Origin: Spinellus fusiger
Lineage: Eukaryota; Mucoromycota; Mucoromycetes; Mucorales; Phycomycetaceae
Assembly: GCA_025094145.1 (NCBI GenBank)
Contig: JALLLS010000071.1
Location: forward strand, 116,117-180,116
Length of the DNA stretch: 64,000 nt
Reading direction: 5' to 3'
The position numbers and the translations under genes are program-made. The notes under the pieces were generated by a model, which had not been told where the DNA came from, ran no database searches, and worked only from the letters and a program-made list of their open reading frames with translations. Positions 1,998 through 47,084 of the stretch are shown here, piece by piece. How positions within the stretch are numbered: position 1 is the first letter of the stretch; each line of letters starts with the position of its first letter.

Positions 1998-3317
1998 ATG
2001 AATAACATTGTGCACGAAGACGGCCAAGGAAATATCTATAATGATGAAGGCATAGCCGTTACAGTAGTGGAGATGGGGGTAGACGAGGAGACATACCCCA
2101 TTGAGACGGTTACAAATTTCGGGATGTACCTTGACCTCAAACCACCCGAGAAGCCAGAAAGAAGAACTGTACAACAATCCGTAGACAGAGATGTCAATAC
2201 GGAAGAGGATAACAGAGCTCCTGGTATCCACAGGCATTAAAAATATTCCGAAAAAGAGCAGTTGTTTGTATTGATTTATGAAAGGGGTATGAGCGTCAGA
2301 GCTGCTGCGCTGAAACTTCAAATCCACCCACGCACTGCTCAGCGATGGTACTCAAACGATCAGCAGAATCCTCAGACATTCATTGCCAGAAAAGAAGGTA
2401 GTGGAAGGCCAGTTGGTAGACCAGCACTACTTGACGATAGCCATAAAAGATTTTTGGTCGATTTATTGGACGATCAGCCCTCTTTAGTCCTGGATCAAAT
2501 GATGGAGAGTTTGAGAACGTCTTTTATTGATTTAGAGATATCGAAAACAGCTCTCTACAATTTTGTCACCAAAAATTGTAAGATCAGTCTGAAAAGAGCC
2601 CATTTTCATTCAGTTGATCGTAATAGTCCTGAAAAGATCAAGAATCGAAAGGAGTGGGTACAGAAATGGATGGAGACAGACATGGACTACATGAGCAACT
2701 GTGTCTTTATAGATGAGGCGGCATTCCACATCAACATGAAGCGTACTTTTGACCAAGCAAAAGTAGGTACTCGTGCAGTAGTAAAAGTACCAAGAACGAG
2801 GGCCAAAACAACAACTATTATGGGAGCAACATCTGCTCAAGGCCTTGTCAATATAAAAGTAAGACGGCCTCGAATGTTGCCTGTTTCAAAGAAGAGAAGA
2901 ACTACTGGATCTGGTGGGCCTTCTCAAAAACAAAGCAAAGGCACTGTTACTGGCCACTATATCAATTTCTTGAGCGATACAATGGATGTCATGGACAATT
3001 TTCCAGATGTTTTCAAGGATAATTACTTGATTATGGACAACGCCCCCATCCATATGAATGAAGACATTAAAAGCTTCATTGAAGGCTGTGGGTACAAGTG
3101 TGTTTATCTTCCCCCTTACTCACCAGAGTTGAATCCCATTGAGCAATTCTGGTCTGTTTGCAAAAGCAGGTTAAAAAGAGAAAGACTCTTGGAAGAAGAA
3201 ACACTGTCATCTAGAATCGCCAATGCATCTAACCAAGTTCTTCTCGGTGACCTCAGAGGGTTTTGCAAATACTTTGTCGATAGATTTGAGGATTGCTTAC
3301 AAGAGAAGCCTCTTTAA
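1998..3317 (+). pseudogene. Tc1-like DD34E transposase, one in-frame stop
   Basis: Reads as a 439-codon transposase from ATG 1998 to the stop ending at 3317, in one frame, except for a TAA at 2238-2240. The downstream 359 codons contain an N-terminal helix-turn-helix (SVRAAALKLQIHPRTAQRW) and a complete DDE catalytic set: FIDEAAFH, IMDNAPIH and NPIEQFW. There are 34 residues between the second Asp and the Glu, the DD34E arrangement of Tc1-type enzymes. Sequence on both sides of the TAA looks like ordinary coding sequence (next residues KYSEKEQ), so a nonsense mutation, for example CAA to TAA, is more likely than an intron. Read-through or initiation downstream could still give a partial enzyme. 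It probably cleaved and joined its own 31-bp ends at TA sites. Confidence 0.85.
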
Positions 3318-6609: not shown

Positions 6610-8087
6610 ATGTATTCTTTGCCACTTCATACACGATCTCATCCACCAGTACAAGTACAGGCACTTACCACCACCACCACCAACAACAACAACAATACTA
6701 GTACTACTGCTAGTACAGCAGCAGTAGCACTGCCTCATATACCAACACCAATCCAATTGTCACAGGGTAAGTCTCCACTCTGTTTAGAGTATAGGCACAT
6801 TGTGTACAGAACAGAACAGAACAAAACAGAACAAAACAAAATACAAAAAAGACATGTAAAGACTTATTTACTAGACCGCAGGCGATCCACCCATGCTGAC
6901 TGGTCGCACAGCATGGAAGGTATACCATAGCTTATGAATGAGCACCATTACTTATTTGCATAGACCAGGTCACACCACGACTTCATTACAGATCCCCAGA
7001 GCTATACTCTCCTTCCTCACAAGTACCTCCCCGTAATTATCCCACCTTACCATCTAAACTGAACAGACCAGTGATTCCCTCCAAGAGAGCAGCTCAAAAC
7101 AGAGCAGCTCAAAAAGCGTTTCGACAGAGAAGAGAGCAATATGTGAAAGATCTAGAGAAAAGATCAACAGAAATGGACAATTGGAAAGAGGAATTAGAGG
7201 AGCTTCGTAATGAGAATATGCAGCTTAGAGAGACCATCAGTATGCTTGAACAAAGACTTGCAGAAGTGTCCATGGGATGTAGTATCAATTCATCACAACC
7301 TTCTAGTACTGATGCTACTACCCTTGCTATTGGTGGTGGTGATGGCAGTAACAATCATAGCAATAGTAATAACCACAACAACATTCGCATGCATTCTCGT
7401 AATAATACGCATAACAACAGTAATAATAACACTAGCACTGATAATAATATGAATATGCATGTCGATAATAGTGCTGCTACTACTAATACTAATACGACGA
7501 CGACGAAGAGTACTACGAGTACTCCTGATATGAGTACATCACCCTTTGTCTCGACAGAATCAGCAAAAAGAGATTGTTCTTTATCTTCAGGAGAGATACC
7601 GGACACGGCTCTAGACACACAAGAAAAGAAAAGCCCATTCCTATCTATCCCTTCTCATGCTTCCCATTCTAATGTCTTTTTATCGCCTAAAGACAGCCAT
7701 GTCCTCAAACCTTCCCTCCATGGACACCCCCAGCCTTCATCCCAACCTAAATCCACACGACATATCGAACCCACGCATCCCTCTTCTGTTCAGCCAACCC
7801 ACGAATTCTGGTCCTTTGATCCTAGTCAAGAACTTGCTATTCAGTTTAATTTTGATCCCTTCTTTGAGGATGATTTTGATCCATTAATAGGCACTCATGA
7901 AGCCCCAGATCCCGTCACTCATGCCAGTAGTGGACGTGTATTGGATGACTTGTTTGCCGTATTACAGACACGCCAAAGGCCCCAGATCCCTCTTCAGCCA
8001 GAGAAGGTGGCTATTCCTGTAGAGAATGTATTCTCAAAAACACTTGCATCTACTGTCGACTATACACAGGGAACGGAAGAGAAATGA
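6610..8087 (+). CDS. Yap/AP-1-like bZIP transcription factor
   Basis: Nuclear DNA-binding regulator, 426 aa. Exons 6610-6766 and 6964-8087; the 197-nt intron (G|GTAAGT ... CATAG) closes phase exactly and yields an uninterrupted frame. The basic region, about residues 93-112, contains NRAAQKAFRQRR. This matches the fungal AP-1/Yap signature (N-x2-AQ-x2-FR) rather than the Gcn4 type. A leucine-zipper coiled coil follows to about residue 150. The N-terminus and centre are low complexity (Asn, Ser, Thr runs encoded by AAC/AAT repeats). The C-terminal half has acidic hydrophobic patches (FNFDPFFEDDFDPLIG) that could be an activation domain. I see no clear Yap1-type cysteine-rich redox domain, so a role in oxidative stress is not supported. 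Confidence 0.88.
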
Positions 8088-10433: not shown

Positions 10434-10555
10434 AAAATGAGAAAAGAGGACCAAAAGCTCAAATTGCCTAGTTTGATATAGAAAAAAACAAACTCATAAG
10501 GAATAGTGTCACCTCTCCATGTCTCTCAAGCCAAAGATGAATCGCATCTCTCTCT

Positions 10556-10780
<225 letters not shown>

Positions 10781-13700
10781 TGATTCCTATTTCCATGTCT
10801 CCTACAGAAACAGCACACATCTCCACTAGAACACAGATGCACCTGAGGAAGAATAAATAAAAGTAGAAAGATCGAAAGATACGCAAAAATATGTGGTGTC
10901 TTCAACCCCTAGAAAGACAAAGTGTATGAAATGGTAGCGCGACTTGATGTTCATCAGTAAAGTTTAATTTCTTTTCACTATTTCCGTTTGGACTTGAATT
11001 TAATGCATACCTCTCTCCATGGTGCGGAATAGATTTCCACAGAGATTCGCTGCCAGGGCCCTATAGAGAACACTCGAGGCTTTGGGGTGTGTGTGTGTGT
11101 GTGTGTGTGTGTCATGATTAGAGTTTGCTGTGGGCTATATCTCCTCTCATTCTACAGGCCTATGTGTCCTTTTGGTCTGGTGGTGTGACAGCCATCGCAA
11201 TGGCAGCGGACAAGCATAGTAGAAGAGAATAAACTCAAGAATGGTCTGCCGATTCCATACAAACAATGATCGTAGCTATTGTTGGCTGCACACCCTATGG
11301 CCTTCCATTGCCCAGAAAGCCTCTTCCCAGGATCCAGGGACAGCCAAGAGTTGGGAGAGAAAAAAGAAAAAAGAAAAAAGAAAAAAGAAATGCAAAGATT
11401 TCTCCAGTCTTCTGTGATGACTTTGCTATCAATCTGATACTTCTACTCCATCCTTCTCATGTGTGTTTCAGTCAATTGCTAAGCTCCCAGTGCTAGAGAT
11501 CGACTACAGCAGAACTCGGGTGCTGCATTCAGTTGTCTTATTATTATTTTTATGGACGCACACCTCTGCACTGTCATAAGAGACGCTGTCTGTCTGTCTG
11601 TCTGTCTGTCTGTCTTATTTTATATTTTCCTGTATGTGTTTTCGACATTTCCTTGTGCAATGGCTTTTCGATGCCGTAACAGAGCTCCTAAACAAGGCAA
11701 TTCATGAACAGAGCAGACACTCCTACAAACCGCTAGTCTTGTGTAAGAAACTAACACTCTGTGTAGCCTGTTTCCCTCTTTCTCTCCCTCTCTTTCTAAA
11801 AATATGAAAGTCTATGGCCGACCCAAAACTATGTTGACTGCCGATGTTACCTTTCCGTGTCCTATGACACATACATACATACATACATACATTTGTTCAT
11901 ACATTTACACTTATTTCCAGATTTCCAGATTCCCATATTCATACATTTCCAGACTCATACATTTCCAGATTCATACATTTACATATCTCCACATCTACAC
12001 ACTCACCCACATAGAGTTAACCTACAAACATTGTACAGTTTCTCAGAAAATATCAGTGACTTTCTTAGTTACTTTTGTGCCAAAGATCATGGTATAGATG
12101 ATCCAGCTCTCCGTATGGCAGCTATGCTATAAACACTTTTTTTTGATATCTGTTGCATTCTTTCTATTGTCCCAGCACGAGAAGCCTGTTGTTGCTATTT
12201 CTCTAAACCACACCACAGGGAAAAAAGGTAATGTTAACAGATATTGTGTATTTTTTGCAATAAATCTGCATAGCCGAATATCGCCTTGCATATTAAATCT
12301 GTGACAGAAATCTTAATGATTTTTACATGAAAGCAAACGATGTTTTGGAAGTATTGCTCATCATGCATATCCATTCTTCTTTATTAGAAGCTTCATACAC
12401 TCTTTTTTCCTGCCATTGAAAATAAAGAATATAATTGTTATATTCCACAGTGTTTCTTTATTGATCTTATTTGCAAAATCTTCTTATAAAAATAACAAAT
12501 CATCGAAGTCTATGTTTGTTCTCAAGATTTCATTATTGTTACATTATACTGAATTCAACACTGAGCAAGAACAGGATGTAATAAAGTTCTCTGAGACATG
12601 ATATGTATAAATGTTCACTCATTCCTTTGTGATAGAATATAATCTCATGATTTAGATAGGATGATGATGATGATTGAACATTATTCTGACTTGACTGTAC
12701 TGTTATTACTATTATAAAAGAGTACATTGATGGAAGAAACTTATTTTATATCTATTCATGACTTGATAAAGATAACATTATTCATTCTGCCGATTTAAAA
12801 TAGATTGATAATAATCAGTTTAGAGAATATAGTATATTACAGGCAAATCAAGGTCATAAATACTGCATCACTAATTTTTATTAATAGAGATTGATGGTGA
12901 CTGAAGAATACTTATAATATATATAATTAATGTTATTTACTATGAACATTGAATTAAAGTAAGAAGACTAGGGACAACCACGATATGTAAAACATATGTT
13001 ATGATTGTGAATATACATAATTTATATAGCTAACTTTTTTAAATGGTGGATGCTATCTTATTGTCCATATGAATAATTCTATTTATTTCATCTATTATTA
13101 AATATTAATTATACACCATGTATTTAAAGATTAGTCATGATGATTTTAACTATTGGTATGTTTAGATCTATCCATATTTTATGTCATCTCTATAATATCT
13201 TAGAATAATAGACATTGAGAAATATCTGTTAACATTACCTTTTTTCCCTGTGGTGTGGTTTAGAGAAATAGCAACAACAGGCTTCTCGTGCTGGGACAAT
13301 AGAAAGAATGCAACAGATATCAAAAAAAAGTGTTTATAGCATAGCTGCCATACGGAGAGCTGGATCATCTATACCATGATCTTTGGCACAAAAGTAACTA
13401 AGAAAGTCACTGATATTTTCTGAGAAACTGTACAATGTTTGTAGGTTAACTCTATGTGGGTGAGTGTGTAGATGTGGAGATATGTAAATGTATGAATCTG
13501 GAAATGTATGAGTCTGGAAATGTATGAATATGGGAATCTGGAAATCTGGAAATAAGTGTAAATGTATGAACAAATGTATGTATGTATGTATGTATGTGTC
13601 ATAGGACACGGAAAGGTAACATCGGCAGTCAACATAGTTTTGGGTCGGCCATAGACTTTCATATTTTTAGAAAGAGAGGGAGAGAAAGAGGGAAACAGGC

Positions 13701-14692
13701 TACACAGAGTGTTAGTTTCTTACACAAGACTAGCGGTTTGTAGGAGTGTCTGCTCTGTTCATGAATTGCCTTGTTTAGGAGCTCTGTTACGGCATCGAAA
13801 AGCCATTGCACAAGGAAATGTCGAAAACACATACAGGAAAATATAAAATAAGACAGACAGACAGACAGACAGACAGACAGCGTCTCTTATGACAGTGCAG
13901 AGGTGTGCGTCCATAAAAATAATAATAAGACAACTGAATGCAGCACCCGAGTTCTGCTGTAGTCGATCTCTAGCACTGGGAGCTTAGCAATTGACTGAAA
14001 CACACATGAGAAGGATGGAGTAGAAGTATCAGATTGATAGCAAAGTCATCACAGAAGACTGGAGAAATCTTTGCATTTCTTTTTTCTTTTTTCTTTTTTC
14101 TTTTTTCTCTCCCAACTCTTGGCTGTCCCTGGATCCTGGGAAGAGGCTTTCTGGGCAATGGAAGGCCATAGGGTGTGCAGCCAACAATAGCTACGATCAT
14201 TGTTTGTATGGAATCGGCAGACCATTCTTGAGTTTATTCTCTTCTACTATGCTTGTCCGCTGCCATTGCGATGGCTGTCACACCACCAGACCAAAAGGAC
14301 ACATAGGCCTGTAGAATGAGAGGAGATATAGCCCACAGCAAACTCTAATCATGACACACACACACACACACACACACCCCAAAGCCTCGAGTGTTCTCTA
14401 TAGGGCCCTGGCAGCGAATCTCTGTGGAAATCTATTCCGCACCATGGAGAGAGGTATGCATTAAATTCAAGTCCAAACGGAAATAGTGAAAAGAAATTAA
14501 ACTTTACTGATGAACATCAAGTCGCGCTACCATTTCATACACTTTGTCTTTCTAGGGGTTGAAGACACCACATATTTTTGCGTATCTTTCGATCTTTCTA
14601 CTTTTATTTATTCTTCCTCAGGTGCATCTGTGTTCTAGTGGAGATGTGTGCTGTTTCTGTAGGAGACATGGAAATAGGAATCATACTACTGG

Positions 14693-14902
<210 letters not shown>

Positions 14903-15024
14903 AGAGAGAGATGCGATTCATCTTTGGCTTGAGAGACATGGAGAGGTGACACTATTCCTTATGAGTTTGTTTTTTTCTATATCAAACTAGGCAATTTGAG
15001 CTTTTGGTCCTCTTTTCTCATTTT

Positions 15025-32840: not shown

Positions 32841-32949
32841 TTTCAAATGTAGATTTTGTGTTTTAGTTTCATAGCTTATCTTGATAGTGTAATGACTTTA
32901 TGAATTCATTAGATAGAGACGTGAAAGTTTCAATACATAAAGATAGTAG

Positions 32950-34060
32950 TGTTGTATAATACACATCAGTGGTTTTCATTTGTAGGTTGCTTAGCAACTT
33001 ACCATCTTCTTCCTATGTTGACAATGAGTGTGTCTGTCACTTCTATTGATATCTTACCTTATTTCAGTATCAGGGTAGCCTCTAACTTTTGTTTGGTGGA
33101 ATACACTATCCTGTCCCTCTCAATAATCTTCTTGAGTTGGGCTCACAGAAGCTCCATTGGTCTGAGATCGGGACTTTGTGAGAGCCAGTAAAGATCAATA
33201 ATTATACCGTTTACTACCTTCCAATTGAGTCATTTTACTTGTGTGGGCTCTAGCATTGTCTTCCTGTAGGTGGTAACTGACTAAAGAGTGTATACGAGAG
33301 AGAATCACTTGAGTTCAGGGCAATACACTTCTCCCAAGACATTGATATACTTGTCGGAGATTATTTTGCCTACTACTACGATCCATCTTTCAGCACCCTC
33401 CTCACTGATGCAGACCCATACCATCACCCCACCACCTCCAAACTTCTTCTATAAGATATTCTAATGCTTAAAGTTCGTGACATACTGCCTAAGAAAAATC
33501 ATGCCCCTGTCGTAGCACATCAGCTCCATTCTGGACTCATCGGACCAGACGACCTCTTGCCACTGTTCATAGGTCCAACCAACGTGCTCACGGGCTCACT
33601 TGAGTCTTACCTCCATGTTTTTATTTTTCAGAAGAGGTTTGATTACCAGAATGAATGAATAAAATCCTATTTTGTCAAGTTATTTATTCAAAGTCTTGTA
33701 TGAGATCTTGATGGCCATGCTTGCCCTAATGGCTTCTTTGGTCTGATAAGAATCACTAACTACTGTTCTTCTCAACCACCATAGGGCCCTATCATCCATA
33801 TTTCTCTTTCTGCCACTCTTGAGATAATATACCGATAAGCCTGTCTTCTTTAAATGCTTCAAGATGTACCCTACATCGGCAGGAGGGACGTTGAACATAC
33901 GAGATGCCTCGACCTGAGTGGATTTCAGGTTCAGCACTTCATGCAAGAATCTGAACAAGTCTCGAGAATATTATATTTCTTATATATCTCGGGGTTTTTG
34001 GTGAAGATATTTGAAGTTTTGGATGAGTTATACATTACAAGAAAAGGAGTGTTATGAAAA
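32950..34060 (-). pseudogene. Dead Tc1-type transposase (full-length remnant)
   Basis: Reading leftward: a helix-turn-helix region (SRMFNVPPADVGYILKHLKK), a second DNA-binding block (KEAIRASMAIKISYKTLNK), then REHVGWTYEQWQEVVWSDES (first catalytic Asp intact), GGGGVMVW, and finally LSQSPDLRPMELLWAQLKK, where the usual NPIE is RPME. Many stops, such as TGA where Trp is expected and TAG where Gln is expected. The frame is otherwise recognisable end to end. No flanking terminal repeats were found. Confidence 0.82.
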
Positions 34061-35106
34061 ATGAAAAATAGTGTATGTTATTTATTAATATAGAAATAGC
34101 CCCAAATCTGAAAAATGTAATAGGATTTTTCAGATCACTTTATATTAATTACCAATGAAAAAATAGCTAAGGATACTAACATTACTTGAAAGACAAACAT
34201 AAAACTAGTAGCCGACTAATTGTGAATAAAAAGGGAATTTTATTTGAGCATTAATTTAGAGATATAGCATTGAGTGATATAGTCTCTAAACACAAGTAAT
34301 TTAATATTTACTATCTTTATCTTAGTACGTTTCTGTGTTCATTCTTTGTCGTTGGATCTTTCTTGATACTCTGTTAGTATCTGCTGTGGTTCCCTGTTGT
34401 CTTTGGCTTCAACCAAAGGATATCCAGATAGTTCAGAGAGTAAACAAAGTCTGATATTCATTGATGGGTCTTTCACACTTCTTTTATATTTTTCTAATTG
34501 ATACTATCTAATAATAAAAATATATAGAAAGAACCCTTGTTACTAAAGTATCACCCCTTAGATATACGCCATCCCTAATCTCTTCTTCTATCGTGTGGTC
34601 TTCCTTTAGGTGGTCCGTGTTTCTACTGACGGAGATGATCGATATCTCTATTTATGGCAAGTAGTTCTCTGACATCCTCCTTGTTCTTGATATACCTCTA
34701 CACTTAGTTCTTACACTGGCTAATATCATACCTAACATTTACCTGTGAGTGTAAAACGGTGTCATCAGCCAGCCTATATGGCTCTATGCTTCACTATCGA
34801 TCTTGTTGTACATTCAGAACCACAGATGGAGATAGATCGGATTTTATTTATTTGGATTCAGAACTCTTCTTAAAACAAATAATAACTTATACTTTTTTTT
34901 TCATTGTTTCTTATAACACTACTATTTTTATTTATTTATTTATTTAAAACATAAATGTCTGAATCATCCTATACTAAAATTATTTTCATTAAAACACCAG
35001 AGATATATAGAGAATAATACCAAAATAAAGACTTGTTCAGTTACTCTGCACCATAAGCTGAATACATACTCCGACAAGACCGAGGTATCTCGCCTATTTA
35101 ACAGGC
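34061..35106. other. Spacer of the 573-bp inverted repeat
   Basis: AT-rich sequence between the Tc1 pseudogene and its inverted partial copy. No recognisable gene or RNA. Confidence 0.4.
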
Positions 35107-35571
35107 CTGCATCAGTGAGGAGGGTGCTGAAAGATGGATCGTAGTAGTAGGCAAAATAATCTCCGACAAGTATATCAATGTCTTGGGAGAAGTGTATTGC
35201 CCTGAACTCAAGTGATTCTCTCTCGTATACACTCTTTAGTCAGTTACCACCTACAGGAAGACAATGCTAGAGCCCACACAAGTAAAATGACTCAATTGGA
35301 AGGTAGTAAACGGTATAATTATTGATCTTTACTGGCTCTCACAAAGTCCCGATCTCAGACCAATGGAGCTTCTGTGAGCCCAACTCAAGAAGATTATTGA
35401 GAGGGACAGGATAGTGTATTCCACCAAACAAAAGTTAGAGGCTACCCTGATACTGAAATAAGGTAAGATATCAATAGAAGTGACAGACACACTCATTGTC
35501 AACATAGGAAGAAGATGGTAAGTTGCTAAGCAACCTACAAATGAAAACCACTGATGTGTATTATACAACAC
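35107..35571 (+). pseudogene. Inverted 5'-truncated copy of the same Tc1 transposase
   Basis: Encodes the same broken C-terminal half (EEGAERWIVVVGKIISDKY, then LSQSPDLRPMELLWAQLKK) on the opposite strand from its partner. It shares the partner's stops, so the element was already dead when the inverted duplication happened. Confidence 0.85.
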
Positions 35572-35679
35572 TACTATCTTTATGTATTGAAACTTTCACG
35601 TCTCTATCTAATGAATTCATAAAGTCATTACACTATCAAGATAAGCTATGAAACTAAAACACGAAATCTACATTTGAAA

Positions 35680-36128: not shown

Positions 36129-38187
36129 TCAATAATCAAGTGTATTGTCAGATCCTAGAGTTTTACATTGAGATCGCAATTCATCACCAGTAGTGTTTGG
36201 GCCTTTTTGAATACCGTGTCGATAGGCTTCTCTAAGCTAATATAACATGTATTAAAACAGCTATTCAGAAATCAATACTATACTATCATTTACCAAATAA
36301 TCGATGCCTCTCACACGCATTACATCCACATTATTCTCAACAACATCCATAATGTAATCATTGCTCATTTTTGAGAACACGATACAATATATCATGGATG
36401 CAAATATCTGATCCAATTGACTCAGTGTAGTATTCTCGAGTTTCCACTCAAGTACCCTTTCTTCGCGTGTGTATTCTTTGAGTTGACTTATATTATGGGT
36501 TGGCTTAGTTCCTGGTACTTTGTTTTCCGTGGAAGTCTTTTTTCTTTCCCGTTGGATACTTCTGAGTTTCTTTAGTTGACATTCAAGAGATACTATTTGA
36601 TCTTCTAGTTTCTCATCATAAGATCCAGAATTATATCCAGTTTCATTCCATTTGTTTTCATCTTTCATATTCTTGAGATTACTTTCTCTCCACTGTAGAA
36701 CAGCTTCATAAAATACGCTTTCATTAACATTTGTTTGAAGATTGTTGATTTGCAGAGCCTTTAGAGCAACACTTTCTTTTACATTTATCCATCCAGGATC
36801 AGCAAATAAATCAACACAGTTGGATCTCATAAAAGCAACACAAGTCTCTTCTAATTCAATAAGATTATAGTCATCTGTACATGCCAATATTTACTGTTAG
36901 TTAACCAAAATATACTTGTGTCTGATGTTGACTTGCCTGCTATGTTCCATATCTCCCACAAAGTACTGCAGCTAATGCTCAATTGTAGATAGTATACTAC
37001 TTCAGAGATAAATCTTTCCATTATAAATTTATCTGCTTCTCTCAATAGGCTGGCACAGTCTTTTATGCTTCCAATGTCAATCTTGTTGGTATGAACAAAG
37101 TCCAGAATTCTTTCAAATACTTTAGGATCCACTCCTCGAAGAATGATCTCTTTCTCTGTAGATTCTTTCATGCCACTTGTAAATAACTCTTTAAACAATG
37201 GGGATATTGTAGCTAGAATCAACTTGGAACTATAAAACACCTGGCTACCTGATACATCATCTTCATCGCTGGTTTCTGATTCTTCTTCACTCTCAAATAC
37301 TCGAATCGTGATATCGTGAAATTGTGAAATAAGACTGCTATCAAACTGAAGAGGTGCTTGGATCATAGGGTTTGGCTTCACTTTTAGTTGATGAGTATCT
37401 AATTCTTCAAGTTTGACAGAGATAGTAAACATGCCATTGTCAAGATAGTCATCAACATCTGCCATAGATATAAACTGTGAATACCCCCTTCCAGTAGACT
37501 TTTCTATTAAATGTCACAGTTAAATTCAATTGTGATTATTAGTCATTTGTCTACCTAAATCATAGGGATTTTTAATTCCTACCAGCAGTTGATTAATGTG
37601 TATTCAAGTATACCATGTCATAGAAAATGTCATCTTACTTCTTACTAAAGACTCAAGGGTAGATTCTGTAGGTGGCATTATAGCAATCTCAGCTTTAACA
37701 TTAAGCTTCAATTTGTTACTGTTTCCTGTTAATAATGTTCCTCCACAATTCAAGTAGATTCCAACATGCTATTGTGGTAATCAAGTTGAGAACTAGTAAA
37801 CAAAGACAGTACTCTATTACTTGTTCTTGATAGAATACCTCTTTATTATTATCCACTCCTTTTTTAACCTATTCAGTGTATATGTTTAATTGGTAATACA
37901 AATGAAGAACCATAGTTTGGTTTGGTTTGGCTTGTTTGTCTATTTTTTACCTTAAGGTACCTATAGACATATAGTTAATACTTTTGTTTGACACGAAACA
38001 ATCATTATGAAAAAGAAACGTATACTAGGATAAAGTATATACAATGCATTGTATTGTTAGCTTACCATTGATAGTTTCTTCCTTGAAAATATGGACTGCG
38101 TACTTCAGAATCTGCCTTAATATTTGACCATTCAGGAATTGACCATATGAAAGAGCATTCCTTGGGTTCCACTGTTCCTCGAATCAT
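36129..38187 (-). CDS. MATH-BTB protein (predicted CUL3 adaptor)
   Basis: 500 aa, exons 38187-38066, 37960-37951 (10 nt), 37768-37646, 37474-36916, 36874-36294, 36236-36129; all GT-AG and in phase only if the 10-nt exon is included. Residues about 8-85 form a MATH/TRAF-like domain (PKECSFIWSIPEWSNIK, SPYFQGRNYQW, then HVGIYLNCGGTLLTG). Residues about 130-255 form the BTB/POZ fold (HDITIRVFESEEE, VFYSSKLILATISPLFKELF, IILRGVDPKVFERILDFVHT), followed by a BACK-like helical region and a coiled-coil segment. SPOP-type MATH-BTB proteins recruit substrates to CUL3 ubiquitin ligases; the specific target is unknown. A direct but decayed duplicate lies at 1-1346. Confidence 0.83.
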
Positions 38188-38462
38188 AGTACCTTATAGA
38201 ATAGTTAAATAGTTAAAGTCTTGCTACAGCACACTATATCTGAATATTGACTCTGCCTATACTTACTTGCGTTGAAAATCAAGAGAGAGAAATAGATTAG
38301 CACAGTAGAATTGTTTATTATCATATAAAAATAATAAATTAAGACATCATATGGTACATGGGCTTTCAATAAAACAAGGAAGATTTCAAATTCAAACCAT
38401 AGTTTTGCCCTTGAAATTATTATTATTAATAAGAATTCTTCATTTATCGCTTTTCTACTCTA
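38188..38462. other. Upstream region of the MATH-BTB gene
   Basis: Short AT-rich stretch between the MATH-BTB start and a divergent Tc1 pseudogene. No specific site is assigned. Confidence 0.35.
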
Positions 38463-39531
38463 ATGTCTACCTCATCTAACACACCAAAAAACCACTTGGA
38501 AACAGGAAAAATAAATAGTGACGACTATGATCATTGTCTCATTGCTCACGAGGCCACTGTCAATGGGACCACTCATGTTGCCATCTCTGCTAGGTTTGGA
38601 GTTTGTCAGCAGTCTGTTTCCCGTATCGTGAAGAAATACAAGGAAGCTGGTTGCTTCACAGCCAAGAAGAGCACTAGGTGCAAGCCCATCCTTAATGATA
38701 GAGACGAGAGAGAGGCCAGTCGCGAAGTGAGAAGGGATTCATTCCAGACAATAGATCAGTTTCGCAAGCAGATGACCACCCAAGTGTCCATGAACACTTA
38801 GAAAATTGATGAAGAAGATTGGCCTGTTTTCTTTCAGGGTGGTTAAGAAACCTTTCCTCACCAATAAGCACAAGAAGTTGAAACTTGCTTGTGCTAAGAC
38901 CTATTTTCACTGAACAGATGAAGACTGGAAGACAGTCATCTGGTCCAATGAGTCAAAGTACCAACTGATGAGGACTAACAACCGTACCAGGGTGGTGCGA
39001 AAAGTTAATGAGGGACTGCTCCTAAAGAACGTCAAGCCCACCATAATGTTTAGTGGCGGTAGTGTAATGGTGTGGGGTTCTTTCTCTGGTGAAAGTGTCG
39101 GAAGGTTGGTGCCTGTGAAGGGCAGTATAGACAGTAGAAGATACATTGATACCTTAAAGGATAACTACTGCCCTAAGATGAACCAGATCGAGTTAATGAA
39201 TCCAGAGTTTGATTATGTTCTTTAAGAAGACAATGTCATCTGCCACAAGAGTAAAAAGTCCAGGCTGTGGAAGGCACAAGAAAGCATTGTCACTATGGAG
39301 GGGCGGTTCTCACAAAGCCCCGACCTCAACCCCATAAAACATTTATGGAGGGAGTTTGACATAGCCATCAGAAAGAGAATGACTCCCAAAAGTACTCTTC
39401 AAAATTTGGAGGTACTCTTGTTAGAAGAATGGGAGAATATTCCCAAGGACACCACAGACACCCTCATTGCCAGCATGGGGCGGAGATATAGGGCTGTGAT
39501 AAAAGCCAAGGGTAGAAACACCCAATATTAA
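38463..39531 (+). pseudogene. Dead Tc1-type transposase with catalytic residues lost
   Basis: Starts with an intact-looking N-terminus and helix-turn-helix (THVAISARFGVCQQSVSRIV). Later come WKTVIWSNES, GGSVMVWGSFSGESVGRLVP, EDNVICHKSKKSRLWK and SQSPDLNPIKHLWREFDIAI. The first catalytic Asp reads Asn (WSNES instead of WSDES) and the final Glu reads Lys (NPIK instead of NPIE). At least two internal stops occur where Trp and Gln are expected. All of these are G-to-A or C-to-T type changes. No terminal repeats were identified. Confidence 0.85.
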
Positions 39532-40925
39532 GGGTTTTCACTCAATAAATTTGTATATAGTATCTTGTTTACCTTCTTTATATTTCATCCGGTTTTCAAG
39601 TCTCTACTGTGTTGTGAGATGGTGTAGTGTGACCGCCCAATCTTCTTGGAGGTTTGGTGGGAAGTACGTTTGTAATGATAAGTAGCAAAAACCCCACGTC
39701 ATAGGGAATAAACTAGCAATTAGTATAAAAAGGGTAGTTCACTACTTCTTGAATAAAAATAAACCTTGACTCGAGCTACTTCTGGAGTACTGTTAAGTAA
39801 CATAGACTTTCTTTGACTCGGATAGTGGGCTGTTTCTTGCTCTCAACCTGTTATCTTTGTGTCTCTTTCCTTTTCGTTGGTTCTGAGCTGTGTTCGCACA
39901 ACGTGCCACACTCTTTCTACAAACCTGTTTGTTCTCTGTCCCCTACTTTGTTGGTGATATAACCAGTACCTTACTCTAACACTATACCCTCGCACTTGCA
40001 AAACCATCCCCACACTCTTCCCTTTAAACCTGTTTGTTCTCTGACCCCTACATTATTTGTGGAAGATACCATATCACCCCATTACACTACATTCTCGCAC
40101 TTGCGAACACATCTCCCACACCCCATCCATTCATCTCCTCGACCGTTTCAGTAGCCAGCCACCCAAGGCCCTACGTGTCCTCAAACGTGTCTCTTGTGCC
40201 CGACATTACAGTGTGTTTAATGTATGCTTTTATGACAAAGAATAAGTATTTCTTATTACAGAAGCATATCGGAATGTAAAAAAGCTATCCTTATTATTTT
40301 GACTTCCACTGTATAATGTCTCTTGAGGCTGCTGATGGGTGTGTTGAGCGGGAACGCCAACACCGCCATAGAGTGCAAAGGACTCTTTCGGCAACAGACG
40401 CTGTATCCTCACTTTTCCTCCGATCTCTCCTCCACCACTCATTCTTAACCCGTTTAGCAAAGCCAGAAGCTGCTAGTGTAGTTGCTGTATTTGTGTCCTC
40501 AGGATTGTCCGAGTTGCTCTAAGTATCCCTCTTTGGATTTCGAACCACCACAGGATGACGGTTATCTTTTTGGTGTCCTGGCTTCCTTGCTGACTTTATG
40601 GCCTTTTGGATGTCTATTCATAATTATCATTTTACTATCATTTACAATCATTTTTTTCCTTATTTTTCCTTCATTGATGTTTTATATTCTCTTTTCTTTC
40701 CGTCTCCTCTCTCTTTGCATTATTTTTTTCAGTTATGTATTTGAAGTGTTTCTATGTCTATTCTCATTTATTTTAAAAAAAAAGTTCTCATAGGGTGGCT
40801 AAAATGCCCAATACGCGAATAGCAAACCACGCCTAAAAAATAAAAATACTTTAAACTGTACATGATGTATTAAACATAAAAATAGCCTTTTTAATCAATA
40901 GGAAAAGGAAGTCTCATAACTACTA
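39532..40925. other. Intergenic region with promoter-like and duplicated segments
   Basis: About 1.4 kb. A TATA-like AGTATAAAAAGGG lies at about 39722 and is followed by AATAAA motifs; a solo LTR is possible but its borders are not clear. Two diverged copies of a segment beginning AAACCTGTTTGTTCTCTG start at 39921 and 40026. A GC-richer island at 40316-40530 has a short reading frame I do not recognise. Confidence 0.4.
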
Positions 40926-42641
40926 TTATTTCATATTCATTTTCAATTCATTGTTCCAGTAATCCCGATCTGAAAACATCTCTAAAAGGTACTCATTCTG
41001 TTCTCTTGGTTCACCCAATTCAAAGGTTGGAGCCGTAATATAGGAAATATCATAAAGGTTTTCAAGTCTGCTACAAAGGAAGGGAATGGTACTACGCCAT
41101 GACCATGAGATAATGTTTCCCTGGATATAATGCATAACCCAATGAAGTGCTATTATATACTGCTCTGCATATTCTTCTACTGAGTAACGATTGGCCTTTT
41201 TTTGTTCGGGTAATATTAGACATAAATTCTGCATTCAGGAAATAATAGATGGAACTTACGCTTGAATATAAAAAACTCGTTTTTTCCTTTTGTTTTTTGT
41301 CTTTTTGAAAGGATAAACCGGATGGTGTTGATTCAACTGTTTTTGGAGGCACTAAAGCATAATACATCTTCAACAACTCTTGACATAATATCTCCAGTTG
41401 TGGAATGTTGATTTTATCTTGATAGATATACTTCTTTGTATCTCTCAAGACTTTTTTGTAGACAGACAACATACTACTGAATTTAATGTCCTGGTGTTCT
41501 AGCTCTTTTAGATGTGGAAGGAAAGTAAATCGCTTAAGTGTTTCTAGTAAAGTGAAGTCGAGAAAAAGTGATTTCTTATTGTATTTGAATCCAGGAATCT
41601 CTTTTAGAAAGGCAAACTCTTGTTCAATTACTTGACGAAGGGTGAGAATATCAATTGTACTGAATTTTCTATGCATTCCCTTTTTATTGAGAACAGACTA
41701 ATAGATTAAAATAAGTTACTTTTACCTTTGATCTAGATCATATCTGAGAGGGCCCGATAATAATAATTTGTTCTTGTTACAGTTTAGGGCTATAAAAAGG
41801 ACTTGCTTGTCAAATCCTTGGACAAGGTGTCTTATCTCGCGACCTTTGCTGTCAAATTTAGCACTGCCAGAAATAGTATTTATTATTTTCCATTCTCCTG
41901 GACCAGGAATAGATGAGTGTGAGAAGATAATTTTCACATTTTTCCAGTGATCAATTGAGGATCTTTTCTTCTCTAAACACTCCTCAAAGTAGGTAATCAG
42001 CCTTTTCATAAATTCAGTGCCTGAAAGAGATAAAGCATGAATTTTAGTTATACAGGTGGTTTATTGAAAAATATCTTTGTCGCTTACCAGGTGTAATATT
42101 GGCAGAAGTAAATTCATAATGGTTATATATTATTTTTCTTTTTCTCTCTTGTGTTTTCTGAACGTATTTTCTTCTGCGCTTTTGATAGTCAAGTTTGATT
42201 GCAGGAGGAATTCCATCAAGAGCAATATATATCAATCTGTTTGGCTGTATATAGCTGACATAACCCTCAACCATTCTAAAGGTATACTTTATGAGCCACT
42301 CTGAAGCTAAATAGAACCCTTTGAATATGTTTGGATTTTCAAGAAGGTTATTGTGAAGAATAGGTGTAAGGTCAATGTAATAATTGTCTATAAAATAAAT
42401 AGAATTTATGTCAGATAATGCCACCAACATATTCTTGTTTTAGACAGTTTTTACTATAATATTCACCAATATCCAAAGTGTCGATCCTTAATAGCTCTTC
42501 ATCTACATAGAAAGTTTGAAAACACATAGGATATTGCTCCCTAGGATAGACAACAGCGCATGAATAATTTTCGAGATTAAGAAGAGAGTATTATGTATTA
42601 AAGTATACATACATAAAGGAATTCATAAATTTTACACCCAT
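40926..42641 (-). CDS. XRN-like 5'-3' exoribonuclease homologue, catalytically degenerate
   Basis: 473 aa. Exons 42641-42613, 42540-42455, 42387-42088, 42020-41726, 41668-41260, 41228-40926, all GT-AG and in phase with no stops. The N-terminus MGVKFMNSFMEQYP lines up with the XRN start (MGVP..F..W....YP). D44 (NYYIDLTPILH) and D96 (LIYIALDG) correspond to two catalytic acids. ITPGTEFM is the XRN family signature. However the PGEGE motif reads PGPGE (first Glu lost), the LDADL pair reads LNCNK (N218, N220), and the downstream GNDFLPH block reads KRFTFLPH. The C-terminal helical part (YSVEEYAEQYIIALHWVMHY, then ISWSW) is present, but there is no XRN1/XRN2 C-terminal extension. Probably an inactive paralogue with an RNA-binding or scaffold role. 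It lies 527 bp downstream of the eRF1-like gene on the same strand. Confidence 0.75.
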
Positions 42642-43168
42642 CGTAGAATTTCCCATGAATCAATTTGAAAATAGTGAGAAAAAGGTGTAAAAATATATTT
42701 GATTGAATCTAATTATTTAAATAGATGCACAAAATAGAATGAATAAACCACAACATTTAAATATAGCTACGAGAAGGTTGGCATCTCTTTGATATTCCTC
42801 AGCACTATTCTTTATGACTGGTCATACACATTTACAACAGATTTAATATAATACACTGTCCATATTATTGGCTTGAATGTAATTACACGAAACATAATAC
42901 ATTATCTATGCCTCTAAGCCTATTTTAAATCCCATGTGATAACTACTCTTACAAAAGGAATTTTCTCGGTGTTTCCATGATAGATTATCAAGCTGATAAC
43001 AGGTCTAAAATAGAGAGCTCAATAGCCAAAAATGACAGCATTTTAATGAAAATATTAAGACAAAAGACGATTTAATGAAGCTATACAACTTTCTTGCCCT
43101 GATATTGTATTCTTAGTTTCTTAGTTTTTTAATGCTGTTCCATTCATTCTTCCTACAAAAAAATCAGT
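42642..43168. other. Spacer between the eRF1-like and XRN-like genes
   Basis: 527 bp, AT-rich, containing the 3' UTR of the eRF1-like gene and the promoter of the XRN-like gene. No other feature is seen. Confidence 0.45.
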
Positions 43169-44794
43169 CTATAACGTGTCAAAGTGAAAAAAGATCACCT
43201 TGTAATATAGCAATCCTCCTAGGCCATGAAATTTTTCTATGAATCGGCGTCCTTCTTCCGATCGTAGTGTGATAAAATGAATAGTTGTGCCTGTGTTCTT
43301 ACAGAACTCAACCAACCACTCCACTAAGGGTGATTTTTGAAAAACCTTCATTCCAATTTCTCTTTCGATTTTTTCAGACATAGAAAGGCTGGATAAAGTT
43401 TCATCTTGTTCTTTAGGATAGTAAAAGATACGCTCAGGCCTGTAGCTATCTCTTAAAACACAACGTGTATACATGAGATCATTCCAAACAAATAAAGTTT
43501 TTACATTGCCCTTTTTCAGAAGCCTGACGGTCTCCAGAATACCATAAAAGAATTTGTCATTATCCTGGAGTGTTTCTTCTTCAAACTCCCTTAACAGCTG
43601 CACTGTCTTTGTAAGTTTTTCATCAGATCTTAATTCATTTGTTAAAGCGATGGCTTGATAAAATCCAGCTTTCCCACCACATTTAACATTCACGGTTTTC
43701 ACGATTATAGCTTGAAGGCGTGCGTCAAGATGATGAGACTGACATAGTTCTGATTTTATGTTTCCTAATCCTGCTAATACAACTCCATTGACCACACTCT
43801 ATAGTTTCATAGTTTTATGGAATGATTCTTTTTTTGGGGGGATGAAAGCATAGATGCTTATTTTCTTATTTATCATACCTTGTTGTTCAAGATAAAGTAA
43901 TCAGATGCTAGTTCACATATTTTTTTCATATACAATTGACGCCTTTCTTCACGAGAGCGTGCAATACGAGAGGCAGCATTGCCACCATAACCATTCTTCT
44001 TTGGAAGTTCGACATGGAGCTCATAAAGAACATCCCTAGTATCTCCTGACAAGAGACCAAACAAGCAACTACCTCCGGCTACAACAATATACCCAAGAGA
44101 ACCATCTACATTATAGAGCTTCTCCATAGCTTCTGTATGGAATTCACTGTCGCAAGAGTACAATGAGGTGTAGATTGGCAAATGAGGCTCAAAAAATACA
44201 TTGATATCTTTCTCCCTATTGCCTTTGAGACTAACTACACCACAGTATACAATCAGTCCATTGTCGGGAGCTTTTGATTATAGCATGTACAGTGAAAAGC
44301 ATAATAAAATAAAATAAAAACAAATTAGATAGAGGTACTCTACTTTCTTTCTTATTCATGTCTTTAGTAGATAGTAATTACTTTTTTTATATTCTTTTAG
44401 ACACGTCTGAACAGAAGAAAGGACATTTTGAACCAGTACACATTTTTTACGACACTTTAGGGTCTTTGCTGTAGCACATTTTTCGGATATTAGCTTATTG
44501 ACTTCATAAATGTCTTCTCCGGATGCTAAAAATGAGAATAAATAAAACATATAGATTGAGTGAGCATTTATAAGGTATCCTACGTATGATGAGAGAGATC
44601 ATAGTCTTTAGATTCCTAACAATCAACCAAAAAAAAAAGGGTGTAAGTTGTAGTTTGCAAGCCATAGAATAGAAAACAATAAAAAGAACAGTTAATTGCT
44701 TTTATATGTACCCTCGTAATTCATGTAGTTCTTTGCTAATCTGCCTCATCCTCCAAGGAGTAGCTACTATCTTCTTATTTTCTTTAAGTACCAT
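43169..44794 (-). CDS. eRF1-like protein with degenerate NIKS and GGQ motifs
   Basis: 426 aa, near the 430-440 of eRF1. Exons 44794-44712, 44615-44584 (32 nt), 44525-44382, 44270-43879, 43798-43169; all GT-AG, in phase, without stops. All three eRF1 domains are present. N domain: MISLIIPSGEDIYEVNKLI, TPDNGLIVYCG, and the conserved YxCxxxF (Y124, C126, F130). M domain: PIYTSLYSCDSEFHTEAM through ELPKKNGYGGN. C domain: VVNGVVLAGLGNIKSELCQS to the end. The stop-codon-reading TASNIKS motif reads TAKTLKC (57-63). The peptidyl-hydrolysis GGQ reads GGN (182-184). The Glu equivalent to human E55 reads Lys. It is therefore unlikely to be the organism's normal release factor, which should be encoded elsewhere. 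It may bind ribosomes without releasing peptide, or act as a regulator or competitor. Confidence 0.8.
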
Positions 44795-47084
44795 CGTGAT
44801 CAATGATTAGAAGAAGAGAAGATAATACTCGAATTAAGATTATGACCTCAGAAATATATTTTATGGATATATGTATTTGAGAAGAGAAAATAATAATAGA
44901 ATAAAAAAGTTGATTAACCAGTCATTATATGAACCTTTAATTATTATCATAAACAATCATATGTTTATTTGATATCAAAACAAAACAAGGCATAGATGAG
45001 CCACTGTCAAAGTATTTTGTATAGTTTATTTAATGTAGCCTCTTATTTAAATTTGCTTAATAATCCAGAGATACTTATGATAGATAACTTTTGATACTAT
45101 TATTTCTTATAAGATTTATAGCATCTGTTTACTCATTGAATTCAGTTTATCAGGATATTAATAAAGCATACACTTTAGTCAATATCATTATTTGAAAAAT
45201 TATAATAAAAAAAAATACAAGTGACACCCGTTATGAACATAGTATTGCCTGTATTTACTATTAAATAAAATTATCTTGTCATTTATCATACACTTTATAA
45301 TGATATCTCTTATATTAACAAGCTAAAAGCAGGTGTGATACTAGTCTATTGATTATTTTGATACGTACATGAACATATACACACAGGATTCCATAGCTCA
45401 ATCTATATAATCGTTTTACATGGACTTACTATTCTCATCTGACGCGTAGTATAAGCGAATTATGATGTATTACTGATAAATAAAAAATAGCTTATTTTCA
45501 CTTCATCGTTTTTTTTTGTATTTATAATAAGAAATATTGCTTGTGCAGAATTTGTCAAGGATTTTGTTCTGTTTTTTATTTGGTATTTTAAGTGGGAGAG
45601 TCGGTGATTTTCCATTGCCTTTTTTCAATAAAGTTTTCAATTTACGGGTCACTTAACTTTATTAGCTGCATTGTTCACATACAGTTATCTGTTTCTCTAT
45701 TTTTAAACTATCACACTATGATGGTACCAAATGAAATCACCATCTTTTAGTTTATATTTCCTTTCAGAGACATTACTTTTGTATTATATTTTTGTATTTT
45801 TTGTGCTTTGGCATATATCTGATCGTGATTTTTCTTTATTGTAGGGCCAGTACAACACAGCACACCTTTTGAATTTGCGTGATACATGGCTGATACTACA
45901 CACCCTAGGATAGAAAATAACAGGTCTAGCACAGAGGAACATACGTAGTGGCTACAATACATGGGCTCCACAAGTCTATTTATTTTTCTTTCTCTTTCTA
46001 TATACAAATGTCTTATCAGTTTAGATCGGTTGGTCATGATTTCATCTAAAGTACTAATTGATAGTGAAAAAGAGCTTATCATTAATACCAGACATATCAG
46101 CCTATACATGGTATTTAATCTTAGATGTCGGTAACAGTGTTACCTACTGTAGTTGATTTTCACGATCTATTCATATTCCAGTACATATAAGATAAACAGA
46201 AAGATTGAGAAATGAGTAGAGAAAAAAAGAAAAGAAAGGGAGATATGATGTTTTCATATGCATTTCTTCTGTAGTGTTGTTTCTAGAAAATAAAAACAGT
46301 AGCATCATTTCTTCTTATTGTTAAAATAGTTTACATAATTATTTATTGAAAAGGGTCTTTTTCTGTGTATTTTCTTCTTTGGCTCAACTACAATAAAATA
46401 AAGCATTTCAATTTACAGGGTCTTGGTCATTTAAGACCTTAGAAAGACATATTTTCTACCCAATAGAAAGTTGTATTCCTATCTTACAAATCTCCAAAGA
46501 GTGTATCCCGTCTTTTTCTGTTTTTGCAGGTGCATGCTTGTTTAAAATAGTCATTGAAAAGTCAACAATACTTTTCAGTGCAATAGGAAATGTAAAAATA
46601 GACACAAGCATGAATATAGATATGAATAGAGATACAGACAATGAATAAACAAAAATGTGGCATTGCACAGCAAGCCCGTTACTATTTGTGAGATGTCTTT
46701 GTTTGTTCATGTGTGTCTGTGTGTCTGTGTGTCTGTGTATCTATATGTATATATGTCTATATGTCTATGTATCTATATGTCTATGTATCTATATGTCTAT
46801 GTATCTATATGTCTGTGTATCTATATGTCTGTGTATCTATATGTCTGTGTGTCCTTTAGTTTAGTTCTTATCTCGCTCTTTTCTTCATTTCTTTTTCTTG
46901 TACAAATAATATAGTGAAAGGAAAGAAATATGCAAAAGTATAATAAGATTGATAAAATCAAGAATCAAATATGATAATAACAATGAAACAAGGGAGAATG
47001 AGAAAATGAGATAATAATAAGTATAATAATAAGTATAATAATAAGTATAAGTATAATAATAAGGATTAAGACAAGGGTTGTATT
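44795..47084. other. AT-rich intergenic region
   Basis: About 2.3 kb with no convincing gene. A 120-codon frame at 45747-46109 (-) starts with a signal-like hydrophobic stretch and has several Cys, but its codon use and lack of any family resemblance leave it unsupported. A 12-bp minisatellite (TATGTATCTATATGTC-like) lies at about 46725-46855. Confidence 0.4.
46725..46855. repeat. Short minisatellite
   Basis: Tandem of about 12-16 bp units of the type CTATATGTCTATGTAT, producing repetitive Tyr/Leu/Cys reading frames that are not genes. Confidence 0.85.

Follow-up and report, generated by a model that had tools for sequence, protein, structure and literature searches.

Neighbouring eRF1-like and truncated XRN-like genes of Spinellus fusiger have lost catalytic residues

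We analysed a 64,000-nucleotide stretch of the Spinellus fusiger genome (contig C167, positions 116117-180116; assembly of 38.08 Mb), hereafter the window, in which an eRF1-like gene and an XRN-like gene lie next to each other. Both are on the minus strand and together span 40926-44794, in agreement with the initial annotation of this DNA, which had described adjacent same-strand homologues of eRF1 and XRN. The intergenic gap of 527 bp given there is obtained if the XRN-like gene starts at an inner ATG (42641); counted between 43169 and the annotated start at 42656, it is 512 bp. Both genes have complete open frames and GT...AG introns. The five-exon eRF1-like model corresponds to the database protein P0001 (419 aa), with the last residues differing, and the six XRN-like exons give P0003 (463 aa) exactly. 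The features are listed below; ratios of nonsynonymous to synonymous substitution rates (Ka/Ks) refer to a comparison with the genome's one further XRN-like copy, on contig C101.

43169-44794, minus strand: eRF1-like gene, five exons (44794-44712, 44615-44584, 44525-44382, 44270-43879, 43798-43169)
44382-44794, minus strand: eRF1-like exons 1-3 (83, 32 and 144 nt), N domain; holds GTS to LKT, E55 to K and NIKS to TLKC
43879-44270, minus strand: eRF1-like exon 4, end of the N domain and most of the M domain; YSCDSEF (YxCxxxF kept), GGQ to GGN
43169-43798, minus strand: eRF1-like exon 5, end of the M domain and C domain; GGILRY to GGLLYY, acidic C-terminal tail gone
40926-42656, minus strand: XRN-like gene, six exons (42656-42613, 42540-42467, 42387-42088, 42020-41726, 41668-41260, 41195-40926)
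42088-42387, minus strand: XRN-like exon 3; D35, H41, D86 and the 5'-phosphate pocket K93/Q97/R100/R101 kept
41726-42020, minus strand: XRN-like exon 4; E176P and D208Q, with E178 and D206 kept
41260-41668, minus strand: XRN-like exon 5; D292T; Ka/Ks 0.37 in the C101 comparison
40926-41195, minus strand: XRN-like exon 6, last part of the helical domain; tryptophan 545 retained; Ka/Ks 0.29 in the C101 comparison

Profile searches of P0001 found the Pfam domains eRF1_1, eRF1_2 and eRF1_3 all above cut-off, representing the N, M and C domains in order. P0001 shares this order with canonical eRF1 (the species' own P0054, on contig C46, and human), as well as the YxCxxxF motif, G183-G184 and, with the own gene, 41-42% identity and the first three introns. 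It differs from canonical eRF1 in GTS, E55, NIKS and the glutamine of GGQ, all replaced, in an altered GILRY motif and in the loss of the acidic tail. In human-type numbering, G31-T32-S33 reads LKT, E55 is a lysine and N61-I62-K63-S64 reads TLKC, with K63 kept. Y125, C127 and F131 are retained, and Q185 is replaced by asparagine, so that GGQ reads GGN. We compared 121 eRF1-family sequences (P0001, P0002 and 119 others from an alignment search, the best 120 of 6151 matches); the GGQ string is present in 120 of them, and P0001 is the sole exception among the matches listed. A published survey describes GGQ as universal in the e/aRF1 examined (PMC2613156). Judged by its sequence, P0001 is a fast-evolving copy of eRF1 that keeps the three-domain fold and YxCxxxF and has lost the GTS, E55 and NIKS contacts and the catalytic glutamine.

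P0003 matches XRN_N (E 1e-35) and XRN_M (E 3.1e-6; its whole-protein score exceeds the cut-off), as well as human XRN1 (9e70, E 7.7e-33), and it stops at the point where XRN1 continues. This match and that of P0001 to the own eRF1 go well past what chance would give. As a reference we used the species' own XRN1 on contig C1, named from its start MGIPKFFRWIS and its residue numbering. Four of the seven catalytic acids, which we take to be metal ligands, are kept (D35, D86, E178 and D206) and three are lost (E176P, D208Q and D292T). The 5'-monophosphate pocket (K93, Q97, R100 and R101) is intact in both XRN-like copies. H41 is kept in the window and is a tyrosine in the C101 copy, position 292 is T in one copy and V in the other, and tryptophan 545 is kept in P0003. 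The 5'-phosphate pocket and H41 of XRN1 are described in PMC8850482, which prints E97. Both proteins look unable to perform their original chemistry, as judged from these residues. The exon models, the residue losses and the GGN among 121 sequences bear out the initial annotation, which had called both genes open, intron-bearing and degenerate at catalytic residues. Elsewhere in the genome, contig C126 matches eRF1_2 (presumably Pelota) and contig C133 matches XRN_N (presumably Rat1).

Comparison of gene structures revealed that the first three exon lengths (83, 32 and 144 nt) are identical in the eRF1-like gene and the own eRF1; the intron before eRF1-like exon 5 is not present in the latter. 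The XRN-like intron phases (2, 1, 1, 2 and 0) match introns 1-4 (2, 1, 1 and 2) and the sixth (phase 0) of the own XRN1. These shared exon lengths and intron positions and phases indicate that both genes derive from nuclear eRF1 and XRN1, as was proposed when the locus was first described as duplicated housekeeping genes of long nuclear residence.

In a tree of 52 hand-picked eRF1s, P0001 did not join the main Mucorales clade and was placed next to second copies of Syncephalastrum, Fennellomyces, Phascolomyces, Zychaea, Radiomyces and Apophysomyces. The eRF1-like gene possibly descends from a second Mucorales eRF1 lineage. Approximately unbiased (AU) tests rejected three other placements: as sister of the own eRF1, that is, as its recent duplicate (p 0.006), within Phycomycetaceae (p 0.007) and with the Mucor second copies (p 0.017), the log-likelihood differences behind them being small (2.3 to 3.2). 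Diagnostic columns, which are few, agree with the tree against a recent duplication of the own eRF1: three b-like and no a-like of five, five outgroup-like and two a-like of eight and, in b-versus-outgroup columns, one b-like and two outgroup-like of six. Spinellus has one canonical eRF1 in addition to the eRF1-like gene. Two GGQ-bearing eRF1s each were found in Phycomyces blakesleeanus, Radiomyces, Apophysomyces, Phascolomyces and Mucor circinelloides among the matches listed; such pairs in Mucorales genomes are P0055/P0150, P0056/P0069, P0060/P0084, P0070/P0159 and P0085/P0133. Some of the Mucorales second copies form a separate branch of the tree.

We profiled residue retention in P0001 using 115 of the 117 sequences P0054-P0170, two being left out for length. 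The protein keeps the conserved residue in 101 of 188 columns that are at least 98% conserved, in 57 of 146 at 70-98% and in 19 of 81 below 70% (Fisher p 4e-6, highest against lowest class). Conserved glycines are kept at 20 of 25 positions and conserved polar residues at 10 of 37. Differences from the own eRF1 by codon position are 0.47, 0.33 and 0.59. The reading frame has no stop; in 300 neutral simulations starting from the own eRF1 and run to equal identity, stops averaged 11 and never numbered below 4. These sequence patterns are signs of past purifying selection, and the gene appears unlike one in plain neutral decay.

The XRN-like gene lies in a block shared with C101 (40845-42882, minus strand; 80.6% identical over 2040 aligned positions). 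Comparison of the two copies gave a Ka/Ks of 0.45 (bootstrap 0.34-0.62) with a Ks of 0.335 over 454 of 463 codons. Exons 4-6 gave 0.32 (0.21-0.46), the division from exons 1-3 having been chosen after the per-exon values were known. P0003 keeps 35 of 53 residues in columns at least 90% conserved versus 68 of 315 in columns below 60%. E176P and D208Q are common to both copies, so part at least of the constraint postdates the loss of catalysis. The XRN-like gene also shows signs, in its sequence, of something other than plain neutral decay, with constraint mainly in exons 4-6. Of the scenario that the initial annotation named as telling against its own proposal, isolated recent host duplicates in neutral decay, recent duplication is disfavoured for the eRF1-like gene by the AU tests, on small likelihood differences, and neither gene looks like one in plain neutral decay. 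In the disrupted C101 copy (L026, 4617-6089) a 248-aa open product, P0004, is still represented in the database, and exons 5-6 show the same degree of constraint as in the window copy; possibly only the helical part is retained there. A remnant that looks Tc1/mariner-like lies upstream of that copy (L026, about 7460-8000).

Structure prediction with AlphaFold2 gave an XRN-like model (predicted local distance difference test, pLDDT, 81.5; predicted template modelling score, pTM, 0.84) that matches XRN1 (9e70, E 4.4e-24), and an eRF1-like model (pLDDT 78.9, pTM 0.52) that matches ribosome-bound eRF1 (5lzu, E 1.7e-40). Weaker fold matches of the latter were to Balon (1.2e-15) and Dom34 (1.7e-11).

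Several known proteins resemble P0001 in part. Ciliate eRF1-2 is likewise a second, fast-evolving eRF1 beside a canonical one, with NIKS changed and YxCxxxF kept (the Tetrahymena protein is 31% identical to eRF1-1), but it retains GGQ where P0001 has GGN (PMC2613156). Dom34/Pelota is a superfamily member described as lacking the catalytic glutamine (PMC6514570, PMC2613156) and is a weak fold match. However, P0001 has an eRF1-type N domain (eRF1_1) and a full-length M domain and is far nearer to eRF1 in sequence; the Sm-like N domain and the shortened M domain without a GGQ tip, hallmarks of Pelota, are absent from it. Balon, a bacterial ribosome hibernation factor, is an aeRF1-type protein that lacks NIKS and GGQ and sits in the A site (PMC10901736). 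This is a resemblance only: Balon is bacterial, 13-14% identical to P0001 and has loops of its own, and a hibernation role in a fungus would be an analogy. Human eRF1 isoform 2 is described in PMC11277123 as binding the ribosome and eRF3 with reduced release.

P0003 shares with XRN1 the XRN_N domain and part of XRN_M, introns, the pocket and H41; it differs in its length of 463 aa, with long internal and C-terminal losses, and in the replacement of E176, D208 and D292. The catalytically dead Xrn1 mutant E178Q (PMC8850482) has similarly lost an active-site acid with the fold kept, whereas P0003 is a natural paralogue that has lost three other acids and keeps E178. A full-text literature search found no publication on Spinellus fusiger and its genome. 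Further literature searches listed nothing on eRF1 paralogues with GGQ changes or on inactive release-factor or XRN1 paralogues like these, most publications being judged by their search entry.

The two genes had been proposed to form a two-gene module, and this was not sustained. No eRF1-like gene lies beside the XRN-like copy on C101, and the genome holds no second DNA copy of the eRF1-like gene. The start of the C101-shared block, 42882, falls within the intergenic gap, so that the eRF1-like gene lies outside the block. The one other locus available for comparison therefore does not preserve the two genes as neighbours. Outside Spinellus, protein searches turned up no close relative for either of them. 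The eRF1-like query gave two matches, itself and one at 27%, in a database that includes Phycomyces eRF1s; the XRN-like query gave 49, namely itself, the C101 fragment and 47 at 23-31%, with full-length XRN1s excluded by length. Such single-sequence searches see close relatives only and, for the eRF1-like query, could by our estimate miss one below about 45-50% identity, since the own eRF1 itself was unlisted. Repeats of 39600-46500 were only short weak pairs, giving no common carrier such as a transposon with both genes, and the upstream flank matches elsewhere in the genome only as short repeat-like stretches. The Fisher tests and the stop simulation bear on each gene singly and not on linkage. 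Chance co-occurrence had been considered unlikely; the adjacency is real, and no result shows it to be more than incidental. We conclude that functional linkage is unproven and that the adjacency is most likely incidental.

Beyond the observed gene anatomy, shared introns, residue losses and signs of past purifying selection, we interpret the locus as two separately derived, neighbouring nuclear non-catalytic paralogues, one eRF1-like and one a truncated XRN-like gene, whose adjacency is incidental (probability about 0.55). By analogy with known factors, the eRF1-like protein probably acts on termination or dormancy, as a modulator that binds ribosomes or eRF3. It would enter the ribosomal A site, as Balon and Pelota do, or bind eRF3, without peptide release, and its occupancy would modulate termination or idle ribosomes. 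The XRN-like protein would bind RNA ends or protein partners and leave RNA undegraded. The weakest constraint is in the pocket-bearing exons 1-3, which speaks against a pocket-based role; we infer that the pattern of selection agrees more with partner binding by the helical part than with protection of 5' ends. GGQ is required for peptide release. A eukaryotic eRF1-type protein of full architecture that lacks the glutamine and the stop-codon contacts, and yet is marked by selection, would offer a natural test case for the functions of eRF1 beyond release (eRF3 binding, A-site occupancy and ribosome recycling), and the XRN1 copy, if selected and non-cutting, the same for non-catalytic roles of XRN1.

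Several points weigh against this interpretation. It is drawn from sequence and models, and both structure models depend heavily on aligned active relatives; they address the fold and are no test of function. The GILRY motif reads GLLYY in P0001 and the acidic tail of eRF1 is lost; GILRY is implicated in eRF3 binding (PMC2613156), and its change counts against simple eRF3 titration. The P0001 end branch is at the program's limit, so its placement in the tree is only a lead. The column comparisons use the own eRF1 and XRN1 and their relatives as reference, in which variable columns have changed too. XRN-like exons 1-3 do not depart from neutral (Ka/Ks 0.78, 0.47-1.37), and the C101 copy is disrupted by an in-frame stop and a 2-nt deletion. 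The last two points, together with the extreme eRF1-like end branch, would also be expected if both duplicates were decaying now, with earlier constraint and a function being lost as in the C101 copy. We consider this possible though doubtful, given the complete frames and GT...AG introns of both window genes, the Ka/Ks of XRN-like exons 4-6 and an eRF1-like frame with 0 stops against about 11 expected.

Other explanations give the two genes a joint role, an active role or a foreign source. A co-selected decoy module, in which the eRF1-like protein disturbs termination, the XRN-like protein protects 5' ends against XRN1 and the genes are kept side by side, would fit the intact 5'-phosphate pocket and two non-catalytic genes that share a strand, lie about 0.5 kb from each other and both bear signs of selection. 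It is unlikely, however: the C101 copy is partnerless, with the shared block starting in the gap, the searches gave no close relatives outside Spinellus, and the pocket region is the least constrained. Distinctly unlikely is a dormancy or defence pair, in which a non-releasing eRF1 in the A site, or one titrating eRF3, and a non-cutting XRN1 capping 5'-monophosphate ends would act as linked genes, keeping mRNA stored or silent on idle ribosomes. Specialised release by the eRF1-like protein, for some stop contexts or for rescue, is suggested by the retained G183, G184, K63 and YxCxxxF and by ciliate eRF1 paralogues with variant NIKS, known from the survey (PMC2613156). We regard it as highly improbable, as E55, GTS and NIKS are all altered and GGQ is universal in e/aRF1 in that survey and present in 120 of the 121 sequences here. 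An acquired viral origin had also been raised. Some giant viruses carry both eRF1 and XRN genes, and this general background is what favours acquisition from a large DNA virus. The introns at the exact positions and phases of the own eRF1 and XRN1 speak against it, as does the proximity of P0001 to Mucoromycota eRF1s, its nearest among those examined. A single scan of viral contigs, made for eRF1 with its alignment and not for the XRN-like protein, produced 49 pattern matches, none of them a relative, and such an origin appears extremely improbable.

Other elements of the window include repeats and transposon-like sequences. A dispersed repeat of about 540 bp (40323-40866) ends about 60 bp past the XRN-like stop and has at least 40 further long matches, 86-92% identical, the scoring having covered 40 of 1173 candidates. 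An inverted repeat (10434-12245 and 13221-15024) has arms of about 1.8 kb that are 99.5% identical and about 1 kb apart. Another pair (32841-33416 and 35104-35679; 576 bp, 99.65% identical, about 1.7 kb apart) encloses no open frame of at least 125 aa and resembles a non-autonomous terminal-inverted-repeat element. A BTB/POZ gene stretch is directly duplicated (1-1470 and 36832-38307; 86% identical), with a BACK domain after the second copy. An open transposase frame with a DDE_3 domain lies at 2241-3317, and 38914-39531 holds a Tc1/mariner-like transposase remnant that a stop interrupts and that has no Pfam match, the name being given by its appearance.

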